A stretch of 14,052 nt of DNA from a bacterium. GTDB lineage: Bacteria; SZUA-182; DTGQ01. The position numbers were made by a program, and so were the translations under genes. The notes below the pieces were generated by a model, which saw only the letters and a program-made list of their open reading frames with translations, was not told where the DNA came from and did not search any database. The stretch covers positions 1-14,052 of the forward strand of contig JAILZY010000085.1 in NCBI GenBank assembly GCA_023512255.1, given 5' to 3'. Positions 3,091-14,052 of this stretch are shown piece by piece (the first letter of the stretch is position 1; every line of letters starts with the position of its first letter).

Positions 3091-3972
3091 ATGAAAAAGT
3101 TAAGTTTATCTTTGACAATTATGCTGATTGCGGCTAGCAGCATAGCCGCAGGAGGACACTCTTTGGCTGCTTTTTCCCCTTCATCTTCCCATATCCTGAG
3201 GATGCTCAGGCTGCGGGCCGCGGTCAAAACCGATCAGCCTGAGTACGCGCTAGGACAGCCAGTCAGCATAATCTTTGAGGTGACTAACCCGTGGACAAGA
3301 CCAGTCAGAGTCGATTTTTCAGATAATCAGGGTTTTGATGTGATCGTAAGAAACTCTTTCGGCTTTCCCATCTGGCAACTTTCTTCCGATCAGAGCTATT
3401 CTTCGGCTTTTAGCAATATCGAGCTTGGGCCAGGCGAAACCGAAAGGTTTCAAATTCAGTGGGATCAGAAGGATATACATGGCCTTTCGGTGCCAGCAGG
3501 CCTTTATACGGTTCGGGCTTTTTTGACTGCGGCTACAGGAAGAGTTAGCTGTTCTGATTACACGCAAATCAGGATCAGGCCACAAGAGGCCTCAAATGCC
3601 TATATCCAGGATTATCAAAACAGCGGCTGCAATGTGGAAGAAGCAGGACGGCTAGCTGGAGAAGAAGAAAGGGATAAATTTAGCGCCGAGTGGCGGGATG
3701 GACTTCTTTATCTATATCATCAGAACGCCACCTACAATTGCTGTATAGAAGAGATTGCCATAACTATGAATATGGCGGATAGGATTATCTGGATTTATGA
3801 GGAGGAAATCTTAGAGGGTGATGGATGCCGCTGCATGTGCAATTATGATCTTACGACCACAGTTGCTGGTCTCTCTGCCGGAGTTTACACAGTAAGGTTT
3901 TACAATAAAAAAACCAAAAGATTTCTTGGAGAAATCCCCATAGTGGTGGTCCCTTGGGCATCACAGCCTTAA
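3091..3972 (+). CDS. Secreted BsuPI-like domain protein with Cys-rich C-terminal module
   Basis: A 293-aa exported protein. AGGAGG lies 8 bases before the ATG. Residues 1-27 form a Sec signal peptide (MKK, hydrophobic core, likely cut near SLA/A). Residues about 42-162 match the BsuPI type of beta-sandwich: TDQPEYALGQPVSIIFEVTN at the start, a central F-D-V-I-V strand, then a proline/glycine turn and GLYTVRAFL near the end. BsuPI was named for a Bacillus intracellular protease inhibitor, but most family members are uncharacterised, so inhibitor function is not implied. Residues about 200-290 are a second beta-rich unit with paired cysteines (217, 218) and a C-x-C-x-C cluster (246, 248, 250) followed by YDLTTTVAGLSAGVYTVRFY. 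These cysteines could bind metal or form disulfides. It has no operon partner; the role is unknown. Confidence 0.85.
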   Translation: MKKLSLSLTIMLIAASSIAAGGHSLAAFSPSSSHILRMLRLRAAVKTDQPEYALGQPVSIIFEVTNPWTRPVRVDFSDNQGFDVIVRNSFGFPIWQLSSDQSYSSAFSNIELGPGETERFQIQWDQKDIHGLSVPAGLYTVRAFLTAATGRVSCSDYTQIRIRPQEASNAYIQDYQNSGCNVEEAGRLAGEEERDKFSAEWRDGLLYLYHQNATYNCCIEEIAITMNMADRIIWIYEEEILEGDGCRCMCNYDLTTTVAGLSAGVYTVRFYNKKTKRFLGEIPIVVVPWASQP

Positions 3973-4718: not shown

Positions 4719-5744
4719 ATGAGAATATTAGTAACCGGAGGAGCAGGCTATATCGGCAGTCATACCTGCTTGGAATTGTTGCAGGCTGGATATGAGATTA
4801 TTGTTGTGGATAATCTGGTCAACAGCCAAGAAGAGTCGTTAAAGAGGGTTCAGCAGCTGGCCGGCAAAACGCTTCAGTTCCATAAGGCAGATCTGCTCGA
4901 CAAAGAGGCCCTAAGAGCTATTTTTGACTATGCGGGGGGGGATATAGAGGCGGTCATTCACTTTGCTGGTCTTAAGGCAGTTGGTGAGTCAGTAGCCGAG
5001 CCGCTGCGCTACTACCATAACAATGTTACCGGAACACTTATGCTACTTGAGGTTATGAGCGAGCACAAGGTCAAAAATCTGGTTTTTAGCTCCTCAGCCA
5101 CTGTCTATGGAGATCCGGCCATGGTTCCGATTACCGAAGATTTTCCGCTCTCGCCGACTAACCCTTATGGACGATCAAAGCTGATGATCGAAGAGATACT
5201 GAGAGACGTTCACCGGGCAGATACTTCCTGGAATATCGCTCTCTTGCGCTACTTCAATCCGGTAGGGGCGCATCCGAGCGGGAGAATCGGCGAATCACCA
5301 AGCGGCATACCCAACAATCTCCTCCCTTATATCTCTCAGGTGGCAGTTGGCAGGCTGGCTGAGCTATCTGTATTCGGGAATGATTATCCGACCCGCGACG
5401 GCACCGGCGTCAGGGACTATATTCATGTCGTGGACCTGGCTGTCGGCCACCTCAAGGCCCTGGAGAAGCTGGCTGAAAAACCAGGGGTTGTAACCTACAA
5501 TCTCGGCACCGGACGGGGATACAGCGTTCTTGAAGTGATCAAAGCCTTCGAGCGAGCTTCAGGGAGAAAAATCCCTTATCGAATCACGGGCCGAAGGCCG
5601 GGCGATGTGGCCACCTGCTATGCCGATCCATCAAAGGCCCAGGCGGAGCTTGGCTGGTTTGCGATCCGGGGGATTGATGAGATGTGCGCTGATACCTGGC
5701 GCTGGCAGTCAGCTAATCCGAACGGCTACGGCGAGGCACCATAA
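4719..5744 (+). CDS. galE: UDP-glucose 4-epimerase
   Basis: Interconverts UDP-glucose and UDP-galactose in the cytoplasm (Leloir pathway), supplying galactose for surface polysaccharides. The protein has 341 aa; Escherichia coli GalE has 338. It is an extended short-chain dehydrogenase/reductase: the NAD-binding GGAGYIG (7-13), D31 at the end of the second strand, SSSATVYG (124-131) with the catalytic serine, and the YGRSK active site (Tyr150, Lys154). [12 protein letters not shown] and the terminal [14 protein letters not shown] are also typical of GalE. The start ATG follows AAGGAGG by 5 bases. The stop codon overlaps the next ATG by one base (TAATG), which suggests translational coupling to the Tat lipoprotein gene. 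Its last 27 bases are part of a 93-bp tandem duplication. A related sugar-nucleotide epimerase specificity cannot be excluded. Confidence 0.95.
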
Positions 5745-5909
5745 TGAAAGCCCCTAATGATCACCAGAAAGAGGAAGCTGGACGATCCTTTTATCAAGAG
5801 AAAAAGGAAGCCGAACGGCTACGGCGAGGCACCATAATGAAAGCCCCTAATGATCACCAGAAAGAGGAAGCTGGACGATCCCTTTATCAAGAGAAAAAGG
5901 AAGCCGAAC
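5718..5909. repeat. 93-bp tandem duplication across the galE / lipoprotein junction
   Basis: 5718-5810 and 5811-5903 are 93 bp each and differ at one base (T to C in a CTTTTATC / CCTTTATC context), followed by a 6-base stub of a third copy. Each copy carries the galE tail, a GAGG ribosome site, an ATG (5744 and 5837) and the first codons of the next gene. Because 93 is a multiple of three, the downstream frame is kept. Confidence 0.97.
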
Positions 5910-6928
5910 TATACCTTGCCCAAGATCCCCTAAAGCAGGAGCAGGGCGGAGGGCTGATGAGTCGCCGGGATTTTCTTTGGAAGTCGCCTGCCGCACTGGC
6001 CGCAGCAGCGGCTTTCGGGCTGACTGCGGCAGCCGGCTGTAAGGGCCGTGCTGGGGGTGATGGTGGAGACAGCAGTCTGGTGGGTGGTGGACAGCCCCAC
6101 TCTAAGCTAGGTGAGCAGGCTGGGCCTGCTGAGCCTGACCCAGGCTCATGGTGGTATAAGGATGGATTTGTCGTTCATGAGGCGGTAGACACTAGGCGAC
6201 TTGCTGCCGAGGGAATCATTCTTGCCCGTGTTGGCGGATCGTGGCGTGAGTTTAAGGTGATCGAACTTCCCGAGCGGTTTGTGGTCTGGAGTCTTAGGGC
6301 TAGACTAGAGCGGCTTTCAAGAATGCTCGAATTTGGCGGCATAGATCCACGAGATCTTGCCGGATCGCACAATGCCTGCGTAGCCACCTATGGTGGCCCC
6401 TGCCGGGACTCTAGCATATCGCTCAATACGGCCTACAAGGGAATGGGATTTGTGGTCAAGGCTCCAAAGCTGGCCGAGGCTGTCCATCAGATCATCGAGG
6501 CGAGGCTTAGGATCGAGCGGGATACAGCCGGTGATCCAGCCGGGGAGATTCAGGCCAAGGTAAGATTTTTAGCTGAATTCTACCATGAGAATGCAGCCAA
6601 TTTTGACCGCACCAAGCAGGTTTCGCTGGAGATTTTCACCTCAGTTGATTTCCAAACCCACACCTTTCTCAATATGATGGTCAACCCGATTGCTTCGGCC
6701 TCATTCCTGGCCTTTCCAACCTTTGAAATTCGGGCCGTGCCTCAGCTCCTGCATCCTAAAAACCCGCAGCTTTCCAGCCTAGAGAAAGACCTTGTCTCCT
6801 ACACCAACGCTATTCATGACTTCATTCACAGCCACGGAGACAGCCAGCGCATGGCTTGTGTCTATCATGTGATTGAGGTGTTTGACGACACCCCAAACGA
6901 GCTGAGCAGGGGAAGACGAATCGCCTGA
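5744..6928 (+). CDS. Unrecognised Tat-exported lipoprotein
   Basis: The full frame is 394 aa, but three in-frame starts are possible: ATG 5744, ATG 5837 (duplicate of the first, same GAGG site 7 bases upstream; 363 aa) and ATG 5957 (GGAGG 5 bases before; 323 aa). Starting at 5957 puts the twin-arginine motif SRRDFLW at residues 2-8. It is followed by an Ala-rich core and a lipobox ending AAAGC, so the product is probably folded in the cytoplasm, exported by Tat and lipid-anchored. The two 31-residue N-terminal copies are charged and probably dispensable. A Gly/Ser-rich linker follows the Cys, then a helix-rich domain of about 270 residues with a conserved-looking stretch around GSHNACVATYGGPCRD and a C-terminal part around HDFIHSHGDSQ. 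I do not recognise the family. Coupling with galE suggests an envelope role, which is inference. Confidence 0.85.
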   Translation: MKAPNDHQKEEAGRSFYQEKKEAERLRRGTIMKAPNDHQKEEAGRSLYQEKKEAELYLAQDPLKQEQGGGLMSRRDFLWKSPAALAAAAAFGLTAAAGCKGRAGGDGGDSSLVGGGQPHSKLGEQAGPAEPDPGSWWYKDGFVVHEAVDTRRLAAEGIILARVGGSWREFKVIELPERFVVWSLRARLERLSRMLEFGGIDPRDLAGSHNACVATYGGPCRDSSISLNTAYKGMGFVVKAPKLAEAVHQIIEARLRIERDTAGDPAGEIQAKVRFLAEFYHENAANFDRTKQVSLEIFTSVDFQTHTFLNMMVNPIASASFLAFPTFEIRAVPQLLHPKNPQLSSLEKDLVSYTNAIHDFIHSHGDSQRMACVYHVIEVFDDTPNELSRGRRIA

Positions 6929-6980
6929 TGCCTATCGTCCGCCTTTATCGCCTGCAAGCTATCCCCAGCCTCTTCGCCTT

Positions 6981-7153
6981 GTGCCTTGGGGGCAGGGCAG
7001 ATGGATCTGTGGCCTGTGCCTGGGGGGCAGGGCAGAATGTGGATTTTGTGGCAGCAGGGCAGTTTTACTATCGCCTGCACCTTGGGGGCAGGGCAGATGG
7101 GCCTGTGCCTGTAGCCTGTGGCCTGCGCCTGGGGGGCAGGGCCGGTGGGCCTG
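6981..7153. repeat. Four G-rich degenerate repeats between convergent genes
   Basis: A core CCT(T)GGGGG(G)CAGGGC occurs four times (near 6984, 7019, 7080 and 7128), each followed by related GGGCCTGTG-like sequence. It lies between the Tat lipoprotein and the secretin, which converge here. The runs of G could form two-layer quadruplexes. A 101-codon plus-strand frame (6928-7233, overlapping the previous stop as TGATG) reads through it, but its LGGRADG-like repeats simply follow the DNA repeat and I do not call it a gene. Confidence 0.8.
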
Positions 7154-7200
7154 TATCCCTCCCTGGCCAGAAATTTTTTGCCTGGCTGCGCTTTTCAGCT

Positions 7201-7238
7201 CAAAGGCTTCTTAGCCGATCAAAGGCTCCTTAGCTGCT
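7201..7238. repeat. 19-bp tandem repeat at the secretin 3' end
   Basis: 7201-7219 (CAAAGGCTTCTTAGCCGAT) and 7220-7238 match at 15 of 19 positions. On the minus strand the repeat covers the last secretin codons (AAKEPLIG) and the stop. Since 19 is not a multiple of three, a gain or loss of one unit would change the C-terminal end. Confidence 0.7.
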
Positions 7239-9006
7239 GAGGCAGCGGTTTTTACGATTTTGGGCGTGATCAGGATCAGCACCTCTGCATCTTCGCTTAG
7301 TTTTTCCTTTCTGCTGAAGATAAGATTTAAGATTGGGATATAGCCAAGGATAGGCACTCTCGATACCTTGGTAATCTCTCGCTTTTTCAAAAACCCCCCG
7401 ATAGCTATCGTTTCCTGATCATTAACCACAACCGTAGTCGTAACTGAGCGCTTGTTGATAAGTGGAAGGCCACCAGAGCCGGTCTCGACAAAATCGCTAA
7501 CCTCTGCCGGCTTTATCTTCACGGTAATGGTATTATCCTCTGAAACAAAGGGGATGATGTTCAGGCTGATGCCGGCCTTGATCGTCTGAACCGTAGTATA
7601 TGAGTAGTTGACCGGGCCGGTGGTAATGGATATATACTGCTCAAGGCCAAGGTTGATCGTGGCCTCCTCGCCATCCATCGTGGTTACATGAGGTGTGGCT
7701 CGCAAAGTAGCCTGCCCCTTCTCGGCCAGCTCATGGATTCTAGCCGTAATCTGATCCGCTACCCTAGGGACAGAAGAATCGAGATAACCAAAGGCCAAAT
7801 TGAGGTTTTGCATGGAGCCGGAAAACTTTCCCGACTGGCCTGACCAGTCTATGCCGAGGCTTTTCTTGGCCTCTGATGAAAGCTCCACGACAATGGCCTC
7901 CAGCCTGACCTGCTTGGGCATGGTATCGACCTTTTCTATATCCTCTTTGATTCTCTTGATCATCTCGGGTGAGGCGGTAATGGTGAGCATATTTCGTTCC
8001 TCATTTACCTGAATGGCAGAGGCAAAGGATGGCGAGATGAGCTTCACCAGCTCTTTGGCCTTGAGGAATTTTGGTTTCACATATTCGGTCTGACTCAGAT
8101 AGTTGAATAAGGGACTGCGGGGATCAGCCGATCCGATAAGATAGTAATCATCTATCTTCTTGAAAGTGTAGCCACCTGCCGAAAGGATAATCTTCAATAC
8201 CTCCTCAAGCGGCTTGTCTTTGTACTGAACCGAGATAATGCCCTGCACCGTATCATCGGCAATGAGATTGATGCCTGTCTCGGTAGCCAAATTTCTGATG
8301 ATCTCCTTGATATCGGTGTCGTAAAACTCATTGCTCAGAAGCTTTTCCGCCTTTTTCTTCAAAGTGTCTTTCGGCTCAGGCTGCTTTTCCTTTTCGGGCG
8401 GCTGCGGCGGCGACTGCTGCCGGGTGATCTTGCCTTTGGTCAAAGAGGGAGTTTTTTCCTCAAAAAGAGCCTGCTCTATCCTCTGTAGATAATCTTCGGA
8501 CAGCTCAGCCAGACTGCTTTCTGGATATTCTTCCTTTATCTGGATGAACTTCTCCCTTGCTTTTTCATATTCCCCTTGATTGTATAGCTTCTTGCCTTTT
8601 TTAAAAAGGCTGTAATCATCTCTTCCTAAGATCTTTGAGAAAATCCGGCCAGATCGCGGCTTTTTCTTCTGACTGCTGGCAGTTTCGGCCTCTCTAACAG
8701 CTTCAGCTTCTTTGGCAGTTTTGGCCTCTTTGGAAACCTTGCTACTGGCTGCTGCAGAGCTTCCCCTTGGCTGAAAATTGCGGCCTGATTCTGACTGTGA
8801 TGAGCTTGATCTGATACGCTCAAGCTGCCATTTTGAAGAGCCAAGCTGCAATTCGGACTCACGCTCAGCAACAAGAGTATGATGCGCACAGCCTGAAAAA
8901 AAACCGCCAAGAATAGAGTGAAGAGAGAAAGGATAATGCTGACCTCTAACGTATTGATATTAAAGAGAGAGGAAAACTTACACGCTACTTTACTACTTCC
9001 GTCCAT
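7211..9006 (-). CDS. Lipoprotein secretin (outer-membrane channel), split by a frameshift at a T8 run
   Basis: Subunit of a multimeric outer-membrane gate of the PilQ/GspD superfamily. The main frame (7211-8851, 546 codons) lacks an export signal and opens at a TTG without a good ribosome site. In the other frame, an ATG at 9006 has GGAG 8 bases upstream and encodes a basic/hydrophobic start. A -1 shift at 8896-8903 joins the two into 598 aa with the lipobox LAVFFSGC (Cys40). Main-frame domains: low complexity 1-70; a TPR-like helical pair 78-130; STN/N0 domain about 170-243; secretin N-domain about 255-325; secretin barrel about 326-533, with VPILGYIPILNLIF typical of the family end. It is last in the cluster, and its start overlaps the 197-aa gene by 22 bases. 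No type II or type IV pilus partner genes are visible. As sequenced, it may be a broken gene, an error or a slippage product. Confidence 0.88.
8896..8903 (-). other. T8 homopolymer, frameshift point in the secretin gene
   Basis: Eight T on the coding (minus) strand lie inside the signal peptide. Read straight, the upstream frame gives LAVFFQAV and runs on out of frame to 8626. Re-reading one T, or having nine T, gives LAVFFSGCAHH and enters the secretin frame. The secretin frame itself has no ATG, GTG or TTG between the upstream TAA (near 8967) and 8851. Confidence 0.85.
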
Positions 9007-9578
9007 GCTGTAAACTCCACGATGTTAATATTGGTGCTATTTTTATCTTTGATGGTCGCTCTAACCTTAGTTGAATATTTCTTTTTCCTGCCCCCAGGCC
9101 GGATTCCCCCTAGTAGTGAAACCTTCACATAGATATTCCTTTCATACTTTCCAGTCTGAATATGCTCCTGATACTGACTTAGGCTTACTCCACTGATCCA
9201 TCGCCTCCGCGCCTCAATGCTCATAGGCGCAGGAGAGCCAATGGGGGCGATGGCGTAGCAGGTTGGGAGAAAATCTCTTTCCCCGCTGTAGAGATTCCCA
9301 TTAGGGGTGTCTGTACTAAACTCTATGGTTATTGGAGGATTATTGGTTTCGACGGACAGAAAAACAGGAATTCTGTTGATAATAAATCCCTCCGCCGAAG
9401 AGCCATTTGAGATACCAGCAATGTCAAGCGGCAAAATATCAGGCTCGAGGCGAGAGACAAGAATCGGCAAAACCAAACCGCTAGCCCTAATCTGTCTGCT
9501 ATCAATTACCTGGCCACAGTCAGCAATTTTCGCTACGGCGATTAAGACAACCAAGATGCTGAAAATGATACGCTTCAT
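8985..9578 (-). CDS. Secreted beta-sandwich-like protein, partner of the secretin
   Basis: A 197-aa protein with an N-terminal Sec signal (MKRIIFSILVVLIAVAKIA), probably cut near IADCG; the Cys at 21 is not in a good lipobox. I do not recognise a named family. Two short patches resemble the pilin-like proteins of the same cluster: FLSVETNNPPITIEF (73-87) against FTVESNCSVTV and FEVEANSDVTL, and GKYERNIYVKVSL (143-155) against their final G-x-Y strand. After that comes a basic loop (PGGRKKKYSTKV) and two more strand-like segments, so it is longer at the C-terminus than the pilin-like pair. The start ATG is next to AGGAGG, with GAGG 8 bases upstream as the better spaced site. Its stop lies 22 bases inside the secretin gene, so the two are likely translated together. 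Confidence 0.75.
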   Translation of the reverse strand: MKRIIFSILVVLIAVAKIADCGQVIDSRQIRASGLVLPILVSRLEPDILPLDIAGISNGSSAEGFIINRIPVFLSVETNNPPITIEFSTDTPNGNLYSGERDFLPTCYAIAPIGSPAPMSIEARRRWISGVSLSQYQEHIQTGKYERNIYVKVSLLGGIRPGGRKKKYSTKVRATIKDKNSTNINIVEFTAWTEVVK

Positions 9579-9593
9579 CCTCCTCGCCTCTCT

Positions 9594-9646
9594 TTTGTTC
9601 TTAAGATTCTCCAGATTAAATTTGTTCTTCAGATTCTCCAGTTAAA
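9594..9646. repeat. 27-bp tandem repeat upstream of the 197-aa gene
   Basis: TTTGTTCTTAAGATTCTCCA (start of the unit at 9594-9620) is repeated at 9621-9646 with small changes. A related 14-bp unit, AAGATTCTCTATTC, occurs twice at 9734-9760. All lie in the gene-free 371 bases (9579-9949) before the 197-aa gene. I see no promoter there that I would defend. Confidence 0.85.
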
Positions 9647-9769
9647 AAGGGAGAAATAAGTAATCCTAAGCGATAAGCAGATGAGCAATTAACAAAAACA
9701 ACCAGAAAAAGAAATAATCTTCAGAATTCCCTTAAGATTCTCTATTCAAGATTCTCTATTATGCCATTC

Positions 9770-9964
9770 GATTATGCCTCCTCATGACCCACAGCGAACC
9801 TCATCATGCCCCACATATAACACCTCTACTCACCATAGATACCTCTACCACCCACCATAAATACCACTAATACCTCCTCATGCCCCACAGCGAACCCCAC
9901 CATGCCCCACAGCGACCCGATAAGATCTTGCCAGAGCAGGTGATAATGATTATGCCTCCTCATG
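9770..9964. repeat. Degenerate repeat block overlapping the 3' end of the 105-aa gene
   Basis: GATTATGCCTCCTCATG is perfect at 9770-9786 and 9948-9964; the second copy encodes the last codons and stop (HEEA) of the 105-aa protein. A third near copy, TAATACCTCCTCATG, lies at about 9869-9883. Between them are CATGCCCCACAGCGAACC-type units (about 9784-9917) and two copies of an ACCATA(G/A)ATACC(T)-type unit. The block looks like repeated partial duplication from the 3' end of the small gene. Confidence 0.75.
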
Positions 9965-10267
9965 CTCCAAGGCGGCCCGCTTCCTCTGGATCAGGGCAAT
10001 GCCTATGATCCCCGCAATGGCAAGGCAGATCGTAGCAGGATGAGACCACACAGGCACATTCGTAGCTGCTGGCGGTGGCGGAGTCGGCGTGTTTACCGTA
10101 GCCGATACATCTATTGTGGCCGAGGCCAGCGGTTCTCCTGCTGCCGAGGCTACCCTGATCAAAGAAGCTGATCCTGCCAATAAGATAGTTCTTATAGTTT
10201 TCAACATACTAAAAAAATTCAGCTTATGGCCTACTCTTTTCTTTTCGCTTATTCTTCTTACTCTCAT
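9950..10267 (-). CDS. Small exported protein with Pro-rich linker, membrane helix and basic tail
   Basis: A 105-aa protein. AAGGAGG lies 8 bases before the ATG, so the long N-region (MRVRRISEKKRVGHKLNFFS) is real; the hydrophobic core follows at about 21-38, with cleavage likely after VASA. The mature part is tiny: a strand-like SATIDVSATV (49-58), a linker PTPPPPAAT, then NVPVWSHP, a helix ATICLAIAGIIGIALI (78-93) and RKRAALEHEEA. This order of short motif, helix and basic cluster resembles C-terminal sorting signals such as PEP-CTERM or LPXTG, but neither core motif is present and the tail extends past the basic residues. It may be a membrane-tethered base or anchor for the pilin-like proteins; that is inference. 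It has its own likely promoter and lies between the 575-aa and 197-aa genes. Confidence 0.75.
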   Translation of the reverse strand: MRVRRISEKKRVGHKLNFFSMLKTIRTILLAGSASLIRVASAAGEPLASATIDVSATVNTPTPPPPAATNVPVWSHPATICLAIAGIIGIALIQRKRAALEHEEA

Positions 10268-10307
10268 GGGAAAATCCTCCTTATGGTTAGTTATTTTTTA
10301 GTGATTC

Positions 10308-10336
10308 TATATAGCTTGCTGGTTTTTCACTAACAA
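10308..10336 (-). promoter_or_regulatory. Likely promoter of the 105-aa gene
   Basis: On the minus strand TTGTTA (10336-10331), 17 bases, TATATA (10313-10308). A start about 7 bases beyond gives a leader of roughly 35 bases containing the AAGGAGG site. This would let the 105-aa, 197-aa and secretin genes be expressed separately from the upstream part of the cluster. Confidence 0.5.
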
Positions 10337-10347
10337 AGTGCGCAAGC

Positions 10348-10367
10348 TTGGGGGGGCGGCCCCCCAA
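10348..10367. other. Short GC-rich hairpin upstream of the 105-aa gene
   Basis: TTGGGGGG (10348-10355) pairs perfectly with CCCCCCAA (10360-10367) around a GCGG loop. No U-tract follows on either strand, so it is not a standard intrinsic terminator. It lies just upstream of the likely -35 box of the 105-aa gene and could be a transcription-pausing or insulating element. Confidence 0.7.
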
Positions 10368-10422
10368 TGTCTTGCCCCTACAATTAGCCTTATCTGCACC
10401 TACAATTGATAGCGTAATTGAT

Positions 10423-10520
10423 CCACTGCGCAACTTGTGTTACCTCCCGCTTTTAGCGAAAGGTCCACGGCGCAACTTGTGCTACCCACTTGCACTTAGC
10501 GTGTGTTACCCCACTTAACG
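10423..10520. repeat. About 42-bp degenerate tandem repeat, 2.5 copies
   Basis: CCACTGCGCAACTTGTGTTA begins a unit at 10423-10458; a second copy is at 10465-10501 and a partial third (TGTGTTACCCCACTTAACG) at 10502-10520. Smaller CCTACAATT repeats lie just before (10377-10406). It fills the 267-base gap between the 575-aa and 105-aa genes; no gene is seen there. Confidence 0.75.
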
Positions 10521-10534
10521 ATAAAACCACTTGG

Positions 10535-12262
10535 TTATTTGACCATAAAGGTTATCTTTGATCTTGCCGCCTCTTTTCCACCATAATCTACCTCAGCAGT
10601 GGCCACATATTCGCCCGCACTGAGTTTTTTGCCCAAAACTCCCCTCATCCTGGCCACAGTTTTAGGCAGAATAAGGGGGCTGAGAAGCTTCATCTCTATC
10701 TGGCCAGCATCATGGTTATAGATATCCTTGACCATGATCCGGCCCTTTGGCTCAAGGTGCGACAGACCGCTATTTTTAACCTCAAGGATAAATTCTAAAT
10801 TTCCCCCAGACTGAGTCAGGTGCTTAAAATTGACAATCTCAGCCGCAGGCTCAATCTGTCCCGGGACAATAGCTGCAACCTCAACTATTTCCCGCTCAGC
10901 TTGTCCTGATGTTGAGCTGTTTTGTCCTGATGTTGAGCTGCTTTGTGCTGATGGTGAGCTGCTAGAGGCCTCCTGTTCTGCGGCTGAGGAGGGCTTTTTT
11001 TCAATGACAATGGCCGCATATCGCTCGCCTGGCTCAGCCGAGTGAGGTGCAGCGAATTTGACCGCAATACCACGAGATAGCCTTGGCCCGATCGTGCACT
11101 CCCCTATCTCAAGCTCTATGCAGTCTGCGGCTGAATAAGGGGTTGAGTTTTTTTCTCTAAGCACAGTCTCACCCTCAGGGCTGTACTCAAGGTCCTTGAC
11201 CGACAAGCTCACCTGGATCGGCTCTTGAGTCAGGTTGACAATACTGAAAGAACCAGCCCTAACCCCACCCGGCTGGCCTTTAATCTCAAGGTTAGCTGGC
11301 TTTATCTCAAAGGAGCTGGTGGCGGCTGATTCTTTGGGCAGCAAAGAGGCCAGCTCTTGGCTCAAGACTACTTTTTGCTTAGCAGCCAGGGTTTTCTTGC
11401 CATATTTTAGATTAAGTATGGCTGTATATTCCCCAGGAGGAATAGGCTTATCCAGCCGACCAAAGAAGGCTACCCGTGCGCCGGGGAAAATACTCTGTGC
11501 ATCCTCATCCTCCTGCTGGGGCGCTTTTTTCATCCTCTTATTTTCCTTTTCTTCGTTTTTATATTTACGCTCAAGGGCTTCGGTAGTAAGTGGAAAGCCA
11601 GCCACTATCTTCCCTGAGCTGTCCTGGAGGCTGATCTTGCCTCTGGCCTTGAATTCAGCCTCGGATGTGTTGGCAATGAGGGCTTCAATACCCGCTGTGC
11701 CATCAGCAAGTTTTTTAATTCCTATTTTTTTGAGCTCTGCCTGCTCAATAGTCGGCCTTCCTTGAATATTTAGCTTAAGTACAACCGCGTATCGTAGTTT
11801 TATGGATACGCCGGTCGGTTTTTTTTCATAACCTGGCTCGACCATGATCGCCGCCACCCTACTTCCTGATTTTCCAGCCGGAACCAGCACTGTGCCCCTG
11901 ATCTTAGCCACCTCGCCTGCTGGAACAATAAGATCGGTCTTATCAAGCTTAATCCACGGAGTGCATGAGTAGGGAAGCTCGCCGGCATCGAAAAAATCAA
12001 CACTTCCATCCTCTTTCTGGGCAACCTCAGCCAGATAAATATGGACCGAAGCATCCTCTTTGGGTGAGGTGGAATAGGCCTCAATGGTGAACTCTCCCTT
12101 CTTGTTTGGGGCAAGTTCAAGATTTATGGTCAGCGGCCTAACACCTATCGTGCCGATAGATTCAGAAGGGGAGGGGAAAAGTAGACAGGACAAGATCATC
12201 AAACCCAAAATCAAAGCAAACTTATTAATTTTACAAATGGAATAAAAACTTTTCGATCTCAA
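10535..12262 (-). CDS. Secreted two-module Ig-like protein, possible assembly or chaperone-like factor
   Basis: A 575-aa exported protein. The start is most likely TTG (12262), 9 bases after AGGAG; no early in-frame ATG keeps the signal N-region. Signal peptide 1-36. Two tandem related modules follow. Module 1 (38-305) opens with TIGVRPLTINLELAPNKKGE, a strand pattern like DUF916/WxL-interacting or COG1470-type Ig-like domains, and ends with PPGEYTAILNLKYGKKTL. Module 2 (316-575) opens with SFEIKPANLEIKGQPG and ends with SAGEYVATAEVDYGGKEA. RGKISLQDSSGKI (207-219) and KGRIMVKDIYNHD (506-518) also correspond. Charged inserts occur at 231-255 and a Ser-rich insert at 426-456. Such domains often bind other surface proteins or extended strands. 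Placed directly after the pilin-like genes, it may act as their periplasmic chaperone or scaffold; this is inference. Confidence 0.82.
   Translation of the reverse strand: MRSKSFYSICKINKFALILGLMILSCLLFPSPSESIGTIGVRPLTINLELAPNKKGEFTIEAYSTSPKEDASVHIYLAEVAQKEDGSVDFFDAGELPYSCTPWIKLDKTDLIVPAGEVAKIRGTVLVPAGKSGSRVAAIMVEPGYEKKPTGVSIKLRYAVVLKLNIQGRPTIEQAELKKIGIKKLADGTAGIEALIANTSEAEFKARGKISLQDSSGKIVAGFPLTTEALERKYKNEEKENKRMKKAPQQEDEDAQSIFPGARVAFFGRLDKPIPPGEYTAILNLKYGKKTLAAKQKVVLSQELASLLPKESAATSSFEIKPANLEIKGQPGGVRAGSFSIVNLTQEPIQVSLSVKDLEYSPEGETVLREKNSTPYSAADCIELEIGECTIGPRLSRGIAVKFAAPHSAEPGERYAAIVIEKKPSSAAEQEASSSSPSAQSSSTSGQNSSTSGQAEREIVEVAAIVPGQIEPAAEIVNFKHLTQSGGNLEFILEVKNSGLSHLEPKGRIMVKDIYNHDAGQIEMKLLSPLILPKTVARMRGVLGKKLSAGEYVATAEVDYGGKEAARSKITFMVK
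10900..10962 (-). repeat. Three 21-bp in-frame repeats (7-residue Ser-rich unit)
   Basis: 10900-10920, 10921-10941 and 10942-10962 are near-identical 21-bp units encoding, on the minus strand, SSPSAQS, SSTSGQN and SSTSGQA. They form a flexible linker in module 2 of the 575-aa protein. Unit gain or loss would keep the frame. Confidence 0.9.
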
Positions 12263-12369
12263 AATTATATTCTCCTAGAGAAAAATAAGCCTGCACAACC
12301 TGTCTGGGTAATTTGATCAGGGTTCCCAAAAACAGGAGGATAATTTTTAGAAAAAGATCAAAAACTTAA

Positions 12370-12406
12370 GAGGGAAAAGGGCAAAAAGTACTTGCCCTTT
12401 TCCCTC
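12370..12406 (-). terminator. Intrinsic terminator or attenuator after the 171-aa gene
   Basis: A perfect 15-bp stem (12370-12384 against 12392-12406) with a 7-base loop lies 36 bases past the 171-aa stop. On the minus strand it is followed by TTAAGTTTTTGATC, a moderate U-rich tail. A smaller stem AGAGAA/TTCTCT (12416-12431) precedes it. The position suggests high expression of the two small subunit genes with reduced read-through into the 575-aa gene. Confidence 0.7.
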
Positions 12407-12441
12407 CTCACTTCCAGAGAAATAGTTCTCTCTAAAAGCCT

Positions 12442-12957
12442 TCAAGGAGAAGATACTGTTAACGTGATAGTGGCAGTGTAGTGTCCAGCCTTTTGGGATG
12501 AAATAGTAGGTCCTGACTTGGCCCGACCATAGATATGGTATCTTCGCGTTGTCTTGGCAGGCTGCGAAGTTGTGGCCTCACCACATGGAGCATATTGGTC
12601 ATCACGATTGAAAAAATTAAGCAGCACGTATGGATAAGACTGAGCAGCCCTATAAGAAGTCTTTATGGTGTCGGCATCACACGTTAAGTCAGTCCCTGAA
12701 AAATGCAGGGTAACGTCTGAATTTGCCTCAACCTCAAACTGCGCGTTATCCGCTGGGAAAGGACCAGGCGGGATCTCCTCATTTGGAAGCCCCGAAAACC
12801 ACCCCATATCCATAGGCTCAGACACAACGCTAACTCTTGCCTCTACCCCAACTAAGGCGTTAACAATGCTCCCCCCTTGCCATCCGGCAGCAAAACAACA
12901 TAATGACCCAGCAAGGATCATTAATAACGCCAAGATACTTCCAAGGAGGGTTTTCAT
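12442..12957 (-). CDS. Secreted pilin-like beta-sandwich protein 2
   Basis: A 171-aa protein with signal peptide 1-24 (cut near CFAAG). AAGGAG lies 7 bases before the ATG. It is a paralogue of the 144-aa protein immediately upstream: NAQFEVEANSDVTLHFSGTDLT (71-92) lines up with NANFTVESNCSVTV and the following PVELT, and both end in a K/S-AG-x-Y-T-x-T-[IV]-T-[LV]-TVS strand. That terminal strand is typical of spore-coat-U and DUF4402 subunits, in which a final strand completes an Ig-like fold. It differs by a longer middle part with Cys93 and Cys125 that could form a disulfide, and an aromatic-rich stretch YPYVLLNFFNRDD. The 21-base gap to the 144-aa stop holds only the ribosome site, so the two form one operon. 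A strong hairpin follows. Structural subunit is the likely role; polymerisation is not shown. Confidence 0.78.
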   Translation of the reverse strand: MKTLLGSILALLMILAGSLCCFAAGWQGGSIVNALVGVEARVSVVSEPMDMGWFSGLPNEEIPPGPFPADNAQFEVEANSDVTLHFSGTDLTCDADTIKTSYRAAQSYPYVLLNFFNRDDQYAPCGEATTSQPAKTTRRYHIYGRAKSGPTISSQKAGHYTATITLTVSSP

Positions 12958-12978
12958 AATTTGTCTCCTTAAGGCAGA

Positions 12979-13413
12979 TTAGTTAGCCGATACGGTAACC
13001 GTAACCGTACCAGTATAAGTACCGGCGCTTCTATCGCTAATATCTTCAGTAGTGTTGACGTCCAGGGTAATGGTTGGGTTAAGTGTGCCTTTCTCAGTAG
13101 ATGTACCATCTTTTATCGTTGCGGTTGCCGGAAGATTGGGCTCGCTATCTTTGGTTAGTTCAACAGGTGATGTGGCGGTAACTGTAACGCTGCAATTAGA
13201 TTCAACGGTAAAATTAGCATTGTTTGTACCAGAGTAACCATCGCCATCATACTGCACATCAATCGAAATGGATTCCGGTAGATCCCTTATCTGCGCATAT
13301 TGAGCAACATCAGCAGTTACGCCGATATTCCCTGTTGCAAGAGCAGCCATAGCCATACCATAGAACACTACTACCAAAGCTACCGTCAACAAAGCGATCA
13401 ATGACTTTTTCAT
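12979..13413 (-). CDS. Secreted pilin-like beta-sandwich protein 1
   Basis: A 144-aa protein with a clean Sec signal (MKKSLIALLTVALVVVFYGMAMA/A). AGGAGG lies 8 bases before the ATG, a strong site. The mature protein (about 121 aa) is rich in Thr, Ser, Val and Asn, almost all strand-like: GNIGVTADVAQYAQI (28-42), NANFTVESNCSVTVTATSP (65-83), PTITLDVNTTEDISD (113-127) and a terminal AGTYTGTVTVTVSAN. The composition and the last strand resemble fimbrial or spore-coat-U-like subunits, although the classic SCPU cysteine pattern is missing (only Cys74). It lies first of the complete genes in the cluster with a 329-base upstream region, consistent with a highly expressed major subunit. It lacks the prepilin-type (type IV) signal, so it is not a type IV pilin. 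Confidence 0.78.
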   Translation of the reverse strand: MKKSLIALLTVALVVVFYGMAMAALATGNIGVTADVAQYAQIRDLPESISIDVQYDGDGYSGTNNANFTVESNCSVTVTATSPVELTKDSEPNLPATATIKDGTSTEKGTLNPTITLDVNTTEDISDRSAGTYTGTVTVTVSAN

Positions 13414-13742
13414 AACTTACTCCTCCTAGGTAAAATAGTTAAAAGTTAATAGTTCAGATTAATCTTACTTAAGGTCTATCAAAGAGAGACAGCTTAATGA
13501 AAATTCATGAAAAAGCTGACTATCTCTTTTCTCCCCCCAAGCCTTAAAAAACAACTTTCTGATCCGCAGTATCAGAAAAATCACCTCCTGACCCCTGGTC
13601 AGGAAATCATGCAGGGCTCACATTTTTCAGAGCTTGCTCTTTTTCTCACCACTCACCTCCTTTCTTTGAACCCGGCCCTGCGGAAGGCCTATTATTTTTC
13701 CTGCCTGTTGATGAGAAAAACCTTACCTTAGGGGGTAGGGTC
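13414..13742. other. Leader/intergenic region upstream of the pilin-like operon
   Basis: A 329-base gap with no supportable gene. It holds two neighbouring hairpins (see 13556-13603), a small AGAGC-TT-GCTCT stem followed on the plus strand by TTTTT (13629-13645), and a GAAAGGAGGTGAG sequence on the minus strand (about 13656-13668) that looks like a ribosome site but leads only to very short frames. A TTGATA box on the minus strand (13482-13477) has no convincing -10. A 74-codon plus-strand frame (13507-13731) lacks a ribosome site. Confidence 0.5.
13556..13603 (-). terminator. Tandem hairpins before the pilin-like operon, terminator or attenuator
   Basis: On the minus strand CCTGACC-AGG-GGTCAGG (13603-13587) is followed by TTTCTGAT-ACTGCGG-ATCAGAAA (13578-13556) and then GTTGTTTTTT. 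The second hairpin with its U-tract resembles an intrinsic terminator, with an AT-rich stem. It could end transcription from the gene at the window edge, or act as a leader attenuator for the 144-aa gene. Confidence 0.5.
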
Positions 13743-14052
13743 TTATGGCGGCGGCAGGCAGGTAAAGGTTATAGTGCCGCTATATTCACCTGCTGGATCA
13801 TCCCATCCGGTCTGTAATTTAAACCAGAGACGGGTAGTAGATGTAGGGTTTCTCTCTGATCGAAAGGGTCTTTGTAAAACCACAACCTCTCGGTCGAGTG
13901 GGTGATAATTTCCATCCGCTGGCTTCACCAAAACCCGGGCCGCGGGAATATTCCCCTGACTGCTTTTAAGGGGCGAGGCAGATGTTCCCCATGTTGAAAA
14001 AATAATGTTGAAAATATAAAGGGGAGGAGAGAAAATAAAGAGAGAAGAAAGT
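13743..14052 (-). CDS. Partial secreted protein with pilin-like terminal strand
   Basis: The frame is open from its stop (13743-13745) to the right window edge; the start lies outside. The 102 visible residues begin with a hydrophobic, T-rich-coded stretch (LFIFSPPLYIFNIIFSTWG) that could be most of a signal peptide cut near GTSA/S. The remaining roughly 77 residues run to a C-terminal DDPAGEYSGTITFTCLPPP. The AGEYSGTITFT strand matches the ends of the 144-aa and 171-aa proteins, so it is probably a shorter member of the same group. A TTG within the frame (13931) is a poor alternative start and would remove the signal. Without the upstream sequence the N-terminus is uncertain. Confidence 0.55.
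   Translation of the reverse strand, partial: LSSLFIFSPPLYIFNIIFSTWGTSASPLKSSQGNIPAARVLVKPADGNYHPLDREVVVLQRPFRSERNPTSTTRLWFKLQTGWDDPAGEYSGTITFTCLPPP

Follow-up and report, generated by a model that had tools for sequence, protein, structure and literature searches.

How might secreted proteins reach the cell surface from a gene run that encodes a secretin and is adjoined neither by an usher gene nor by a type II or type IV pilus operon? The question is raised by the stretch analysed here, which makes up all of contig G000:C91 (14,052 bases, "the window" below) in the genome assembly of an uncultured bacterium (3.83 Mb, 96.6% complete). From 7211 to 14052 seven minus-strand frames follow one another, encoding proteins of 102 (running off the contig), 144, 171, 575, 105, 197 and 546 amino acids (aa), and the cluster extends past the right end of the contig. 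The initial annotation read them as a run of exported proteins forming a possible module for a surface structure, made up of secreted subunits, an Ig-like protein holding them and a secretin. The sizes, the run and these three kinds of component stand, and signal peptides are seen on the 144-, 171-, 575-, 105- and 197-aa proteins, that of the secretin depending on a change of frame described below; the fibre and its export through the secretin we infer. We propose that the cluster, whose conserved genes are designated A to F, probably builds a Sec-dependent surface structure by what may be called a chaperone-secretin pathway. The genome of the window's bacterium was surveyed by named searches and in selected stretches.

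A tandem chaperone-like protein

By homology and predicted fold, the product of gene D (10535..12262, minus strand, 575 aa) is a tandem of two modules (approximately residues 37-300 and 315-575) related to WxLIP (DUF916) and similar in fold to PapD and CsuC. WxLIP consists of DUF916 and DUF3324 domains followed by a C-terminal helix, with a hairpin predicted to complete the WxL sandwich (PMC10599100). The window protein matches both WxLIP domains of Pfam below threshold, with 19.3 bits for WxLIP_PGBD (DUF916, cut-off 27.3) and 17.6 bits for HBD (DUF3324, cut-off 28.9). Its orthologue at locus L036 passes the WxLIP_PGBD cut-off (50.4 bits against 27.3, in two stretches), and HBD is not listed for it. 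An alignment profile of D relatives also finds the Enterococcus faecium WxLIP (EfmWxLIP1) in the PDB, with E 3e-9.

An AlphaFold2 model of D (predicted local distance difference test, pLDDT, of 81) is nearly all beta and fits a pair of modules, each with two Ig-like domains; the protein first described as having two Ig-like modules thus holds about four such domains in all. Compared with solved structures, module 1 of the model matches WxLIP at Z 18.2 and module 2 at Z 17.6. Usher-pathway chaperones are among the next best matches of module 2 (CsuC at Z 13.8, CfaA at 13.2, FimC and Caf1M at 12.3, PapD at 11.9), and module 1 matches FaeE at Z 11.0; with matches over approximately 180-200 residues, the model shows the two-domain PapD-like chaperone fold. 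The two modules are homologous to each other by profile comparison (hhalign, 99.9%, E 8e-38). In a module tree the N- and C-terminal modules tend to group by position, with weak support and with two N modules among the single-module rows, a grouping that suits one old duplication. Conservation of the hairpin is 0.51 in module 1 (80-106) against an average of 0.44, and 0.39, below average, in module 2 (357-384). The earlier guess that this protein holds the subunits is strengthened, since homology and fold both point to a tandem WxLIP/PapD-like chaperone.

The same homology could be read differently, with D as a structural scaffold kept in a finished WxL-like complex on the cell wall or surface and the secretin serving only as its exit. 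The nearest solved relative of D is indeed WxLIP, including the WxLIP-long WxL complex entry 9i25, and in WxL clusters, too, a single WxLIP accompanies two small secreted proteins (PMC10599100); moreover, the two modules of D could bind two subunits at once. We nevertheless consider such a complex unlikely, because WxLIPs end in a membrane helix that is missing from D, and because both the strong likeness of its modules to usher-pathway chaperones and the presence of a single D per operon, placed before the gene for an outer-membrane gate, suit a chaperone.

The secretin

The 546-aa frame at the end of the run, gene F (7211..9006, minus strand), is confirmed as a secretin (PF00263, E 2.7e-38). 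In Pfam searches Secretin_N is at its cut-off, N0/STN are just below theirs, and there is a match to TPR_6, so that F comprises a TPR-like region, lying between the lipobox and the N0 domain, followed by N0, N1 and secretin domains. Its reading frame is open from 7211 to about 8959, but translation probably starts in another frame, at ATG 9006, and a hydrophobic signal helix lies in that frame too. The lipobox (FSGC) shares the frame of the rest of F, and the two frames part at a run of eight T's (8896-8903), which is either an assembly error or a site of slippage or phase variation. In the same-genus genome G001 the orthologue is an uninterrupted lipoprotein. The secretin of the initial annotation is thus secure, and its description as a lipoprotein holds only if the frame shifts at the 8-T run.

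Subunits and the two-domain gene A

Genes B (12979..13413, minus strand, 144 aa) and C (12442..12957, minus strand, 171 aa) encode predicted Sec-secreted beta-sandwich subunits, B being weakly DUF4402-like (Pfam DUF4402, E 0.0095, below the cut-off). Both have in common with their relatives a strand of the form I/V-x-V-x-A/G-x-V at the start and one of the form AGxYxxxITxTV at the end. Neither has a Pfam match to the WxL domain at E<=1, and a subunit profile run against PDB sequences gave nothing significant, with Caf1 only at E>1. Among the top Foldseek matches of a low-confidence model of C are the PapG pilin domain and CsuA/B, with E ~0.006-0.008.

The 102-aa frame at the right end of the window (13743..14052, minus strand), first taken for a whole small beta-sandwich protein, is in fact the 3' end of the larger two-domain gene A, cut by the contig end, and encodes the C-terminal domain of a putative secreted, tip/adhesin-like protein. 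Its relatives, of 305 aa in G001 and 313 aa at L036, head both orthologous operons, and the visible 102 aa are 42% and 38% identical to their respective C-terminal ends. In a search with the 305-aa protein, residues 22-212 match the start of contig C105 (C105:96-752, 53% identity) and residues 225-303 match the end of C91, so that the two contigs very probably adjoin across gene A; no terminal overlap between them was found. The remainder of C105 (12.4 kb) carries genes for an outer-membrane-like protein and TPR and cytochrome-like genes. On this inferred rightward continuation, an extension that the initial annotation had suggested as a check, no secretin or chaperone homologue was found by profile, and no usher, pilus or other ATPase, PilM-P or type II genes were recognised among the frames.

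Conservation of the operon

The order A-B-C-D-E-F is kept in the window, in G001 (L022) and at L036, with unrelated flanking genes in G001 and L036. Because the same order recurs in independent genomes, the gene run is more than chance. Identity to the window proteins in G001 and L036 is 33-46% for A, 37-51% for C and 40-50% for D. Orthologues of B occupy the same position with 35% (G001), 29% (L036) and 32% (G007) identity, as do those of C with 35-51%. The secretin F is 72% identical in G001 and 62% at L036. Gene E (8985..9578, minus strand, 197 aa) encodes a secreted protein between the chaperone-like D and the secretin F, and its orthologues (48% in G001, 29% at L036) stand in the same place. 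In a further genome, G007, an A-like gene is present together with three subunits and with D and F, the last two interrupted by a stop or frameshift.

A contig scan with the single D protein gave no relatives and an alignment-based scan gave six loci; no close relatives were found in viral contigs. By profile search, D homologues are present in 52 of 386 genomes. Most are single-module proteins (~270 aa), often with small proteins encoded ahead of them, and the single-module gene is followed by a protein of at least 750 aa in 33 of 48 loci, with CarboxypepD_reg/SdrD_B-like ends in those that were scanned. The presence of a secretin distinguishes the two forms: of the 15 testable double-module loci 11 have one within 3 kb, and of the 48 single-module loci none does (Fisher p 2e-9, related loci being counted as independent with no correction for kinship). 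Among these eleven, the secretin of L078 is encoded on the opposite strand at a distance of 2.5 kb, and L158 was found via the secretin tree described below; the count is 10/14 if L158 is left aside. The linked loci cover seven families (f1, f4, f51, f190, f178, f242 and f219) as well as L036 and L039, and five of the seven share only the domain with the window.

The secretin clade, motors and ushers

A tree was made of the secretins of the linked loci together with the other secretins of the same genomes. All 11 linked secretins fall in one clade (support 100/99), separate from the type IV pilus and type II secretins of these genomes, along with one extra row, L155 from G280. The neighbourhood of L155, fetched afterwards, encodes a chaperone homologue of 560 aa, separated from the secretin by 3 bp, and further on a subunit-like gene; the clade had therefore predicted the linkage. 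At two loci (L028 5682-7484 and L073 2109-3911) a 600-aa protein with an N0/STN-like start and a barrel-like end follows directly after the chaperone-linked secretin.

The genome of the window encodes seven secretins and has twelve PF00437 ATPase matches, its other secretins lying on contigs with PF00437 ATPases (C158, C84, C83 and C8) or with PilM-P-like genes (C101). Together with the GspD-like N0/N1 domains retained in F, this wealth of motors would allow F to borrow those of the type II or type IV pilus systems, the cluster then supplying their substrates and an alternative outer-membrane gate. Such borrowing appears improbable in view of the separate clade of the linked secretins and of the signals of proteins A-C, which are of Sec type and not of prepilin type. 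Furthermore, no type IV pilus or type II genes (ATPase, platform, prepilin, PilM-P) were recognised to the left in the window, on C105, or around the intact operons L036 and L022-L024. A degenerate chaperone-usher locus, its usher lost or elsewhere, would accommodate the PapD-like fold of D, the weakly pilin-like subunits and the possibly usher-like large proteins adjoining single-module relatives, and is nonetheless most improbable, since no match to the usher family (PF00577) was obtained anywhere in the window genome (an E. coli control matched), and since adjacency recurring in several families with one secretin clade shows the secretin to be no incidental neighbour. Neither an adjoining type II or type IV pilus operon or usher nor a loss of the gene order, which the initial annotation had named as speaking against its module, was thus encountered.

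The 105-aa protein

Between D and E, the window carries a gene for a 105-aa protein (9950..10267, minus strand) within repeat-rich spacer DNA. It occurs in the window only, and no homologue was found in the other clusters, so that the anchor which the initial annotation counted as part of the module is not conserved in relatives, and we rejected a conserved anchor on that ground. After its signal peptide, the mature start SATIDVSATV matches the subunit start strand better than any other of the 914 frames that were not used for training (923 open reading frames were searched, including nine training sequences, and 2/5000 shuffles reach its score); a Pro-rich linker, a C-terminal hydrophobic helix and RKR come after it. 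As this start copies the first strand of the subunits, it is tempting to speculate, at low confidence, that this lineage-specific protein is a candidate tether lending a strand to subunits. Exosortases are present in the genome, and the protein has a Loki-CTERM match below the cut-off only. No second copy of its tail was found in the genome, and a PEP-CTERM/LPXTG-type sorted protein was rejected, the tail not being shared by other proteins of the genome. Short direct repeats flank the gene (42-46 nt at 9774-9917 and 23 nt at 10422-10486), hinting at an insertion.

A proposed chaperone-secretin pathway

In the pathway that we infer, subunit binding by D would be followed by passage through F and fibre formation. 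Proteins A, B and C would leave the cytosol through Sec. In the periplasm D would cap or complete their beta-sandwiches, in the manner of the predicted WxLIP hairpin on WxL and of PapD-type chaperones on pilins, and the D-subunit complex would be passed, perhaps with the help of E, to the N0/N1 domains of F, itself presumably lipid-anchored and possibly self-piloting through its TPR-like region. Subunits would cross the pore of F with the tip-like A first, and once outside they would exchange strands or stack to form the surface structure, no ATPase being involved. The base may be tethered, in the window strain, by the 105-aa protein, which would present a copy of the first subunit strand on a membrane-anchored stalk. 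We see an even chance that this represents a distinct route of export and assembly, running parallel to chaperone-usher in several distant bacterial groups, in which tandem WxLIP/PapD-like chaperones feed strand-complemented subunits to a dedicated, ATPase-independent clade of secretins.

Several observations weigh against the proposed pathway. The likeness of D to PapD could be one of shared fold only, Ig-like folds being common, and WxLIP itself has been described as a peptidoglycan-binding surface protein, not as a proven chaperone. Protein D also departs from WxLIP at its C-terminus, where a beta strand (...KITFMVK) stands in place of the transmembrane helix. The predicted model of C is of poor quality (pLDDT 67), and in a VIA comparison its pilin-like matches (Z ~5, best Z 5.9) are level with those to unrelated folds, as expected by chance. 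Finally, two A-subunit-D loci of G003 have no secretin next to them.

Relation to known systems

Every part of the cluster is of a known kind. The WxL/WxLIP (DUF916-DUF3324, Csc) clusters of Lactobacillales and Bacillales, whose published description concerns Firmicutes (PMC10599100), contain a homologue of D and likewise have small secreted beta-sandwich partners for a single WxLIP-type gene, strand completion being predicted for the WxLIP hairpin. In contrast, the window cluster has a double module without the C-terminal membrane helix, subunits without a WxL match, and an outer-membrane secretin. Chaperone-usher systems (archaic Csu, class 5 CFA/I, type 1) share with it a two-domain PapD-like chaperone fold, secreted sandwich subunits, a two-domain tip-like protein and an outer-membrane gate encoded in the operon; here, however, the gate is a secretin, the genome is devoid of ushers, the chaperone is a fused tandem, and any donor-strand polymerisation would be hypothetical. 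With type II secretion, type IV pili and Tad the cluster has in common a secretin with N0, N1 and secretin domains, and it differs from them in the lack of adjoining ATPase, platform, prepilin and PilM-P genes and in its separate secretin clade. A survey of diderm secretion places secretins in the type II and type III secretion systems, type IV pili and Tad pili, and names the chaperone-usher pathway apart from these (PMC4793230). In the open-access literature searched, we found no relevant papers on DUF4402, on orphan secretins or on combinations of WxL, secretin and chaperone-usher components, and no earlier description of a tandem WxLIP/PapD-like chaperone together with a secretin clade of its own.

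The single-module loci of many genomes (L108, L118, L034, L100, L097, L099 and others) also have a homologous chaperone-like, DUF916-like gene behind small secreted subunits. They differ from the window in their one module and in a large protein with CarboxypepD_reg/SdrD_B-like ends that replaces the secretin. These 800-1000-aa proteins, with CarboxypepD_reg ends, share a conserved GDxxYSLSPLTERYxYGRGI motif and are possibly usher-like; no usher match was found in Pfam or the PDB by sequence for the large partners (800-1070 aa) of single-module chaperones. No earlier description of such loci was found. At locus L029, in the 0.8 Mb genome G067, two DUF916-like proteins (5257-6222 and 7811-8830) each carry a membrane helix at the C-terminus and stand beside secreted proteins, an arrangement that would be expected where there is no outer-membrane gate.

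Other genes of the window

Three plus-strand frames of the window deserve mention. A 293-aa secreted protein (3091-3972) has a BsuPI (intracellular proteinase inhibitor) domain with E 1e-16. A 394-aa protein (5744-6928) starts with a near-perfect duplication of ~32 residues, ahead of a signal resembling that of twin-arginine translocation (TAT). The third, a 101-aa frame (6928-7233) of repeated LGGRADG units, overlaps the end of the secretin gene and may not be a gene.

Implications

Secretins are known as the gates of motor-driven machines, and PapD-like chaperones as the partners of ushers. A conserved operon of chaperone and secretin, with a secretin clade of its own, implies that a secretin can act as a passive or chaperone-fed gate. 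One shared chaperone-like family also links the WxL surface complexes of Gram-positive bacteria and the chaperone-usher pili of Gram-negative ones. The link is relevant to the question of how cells adapted their surface fibres on gaining or losing an outer membrane.

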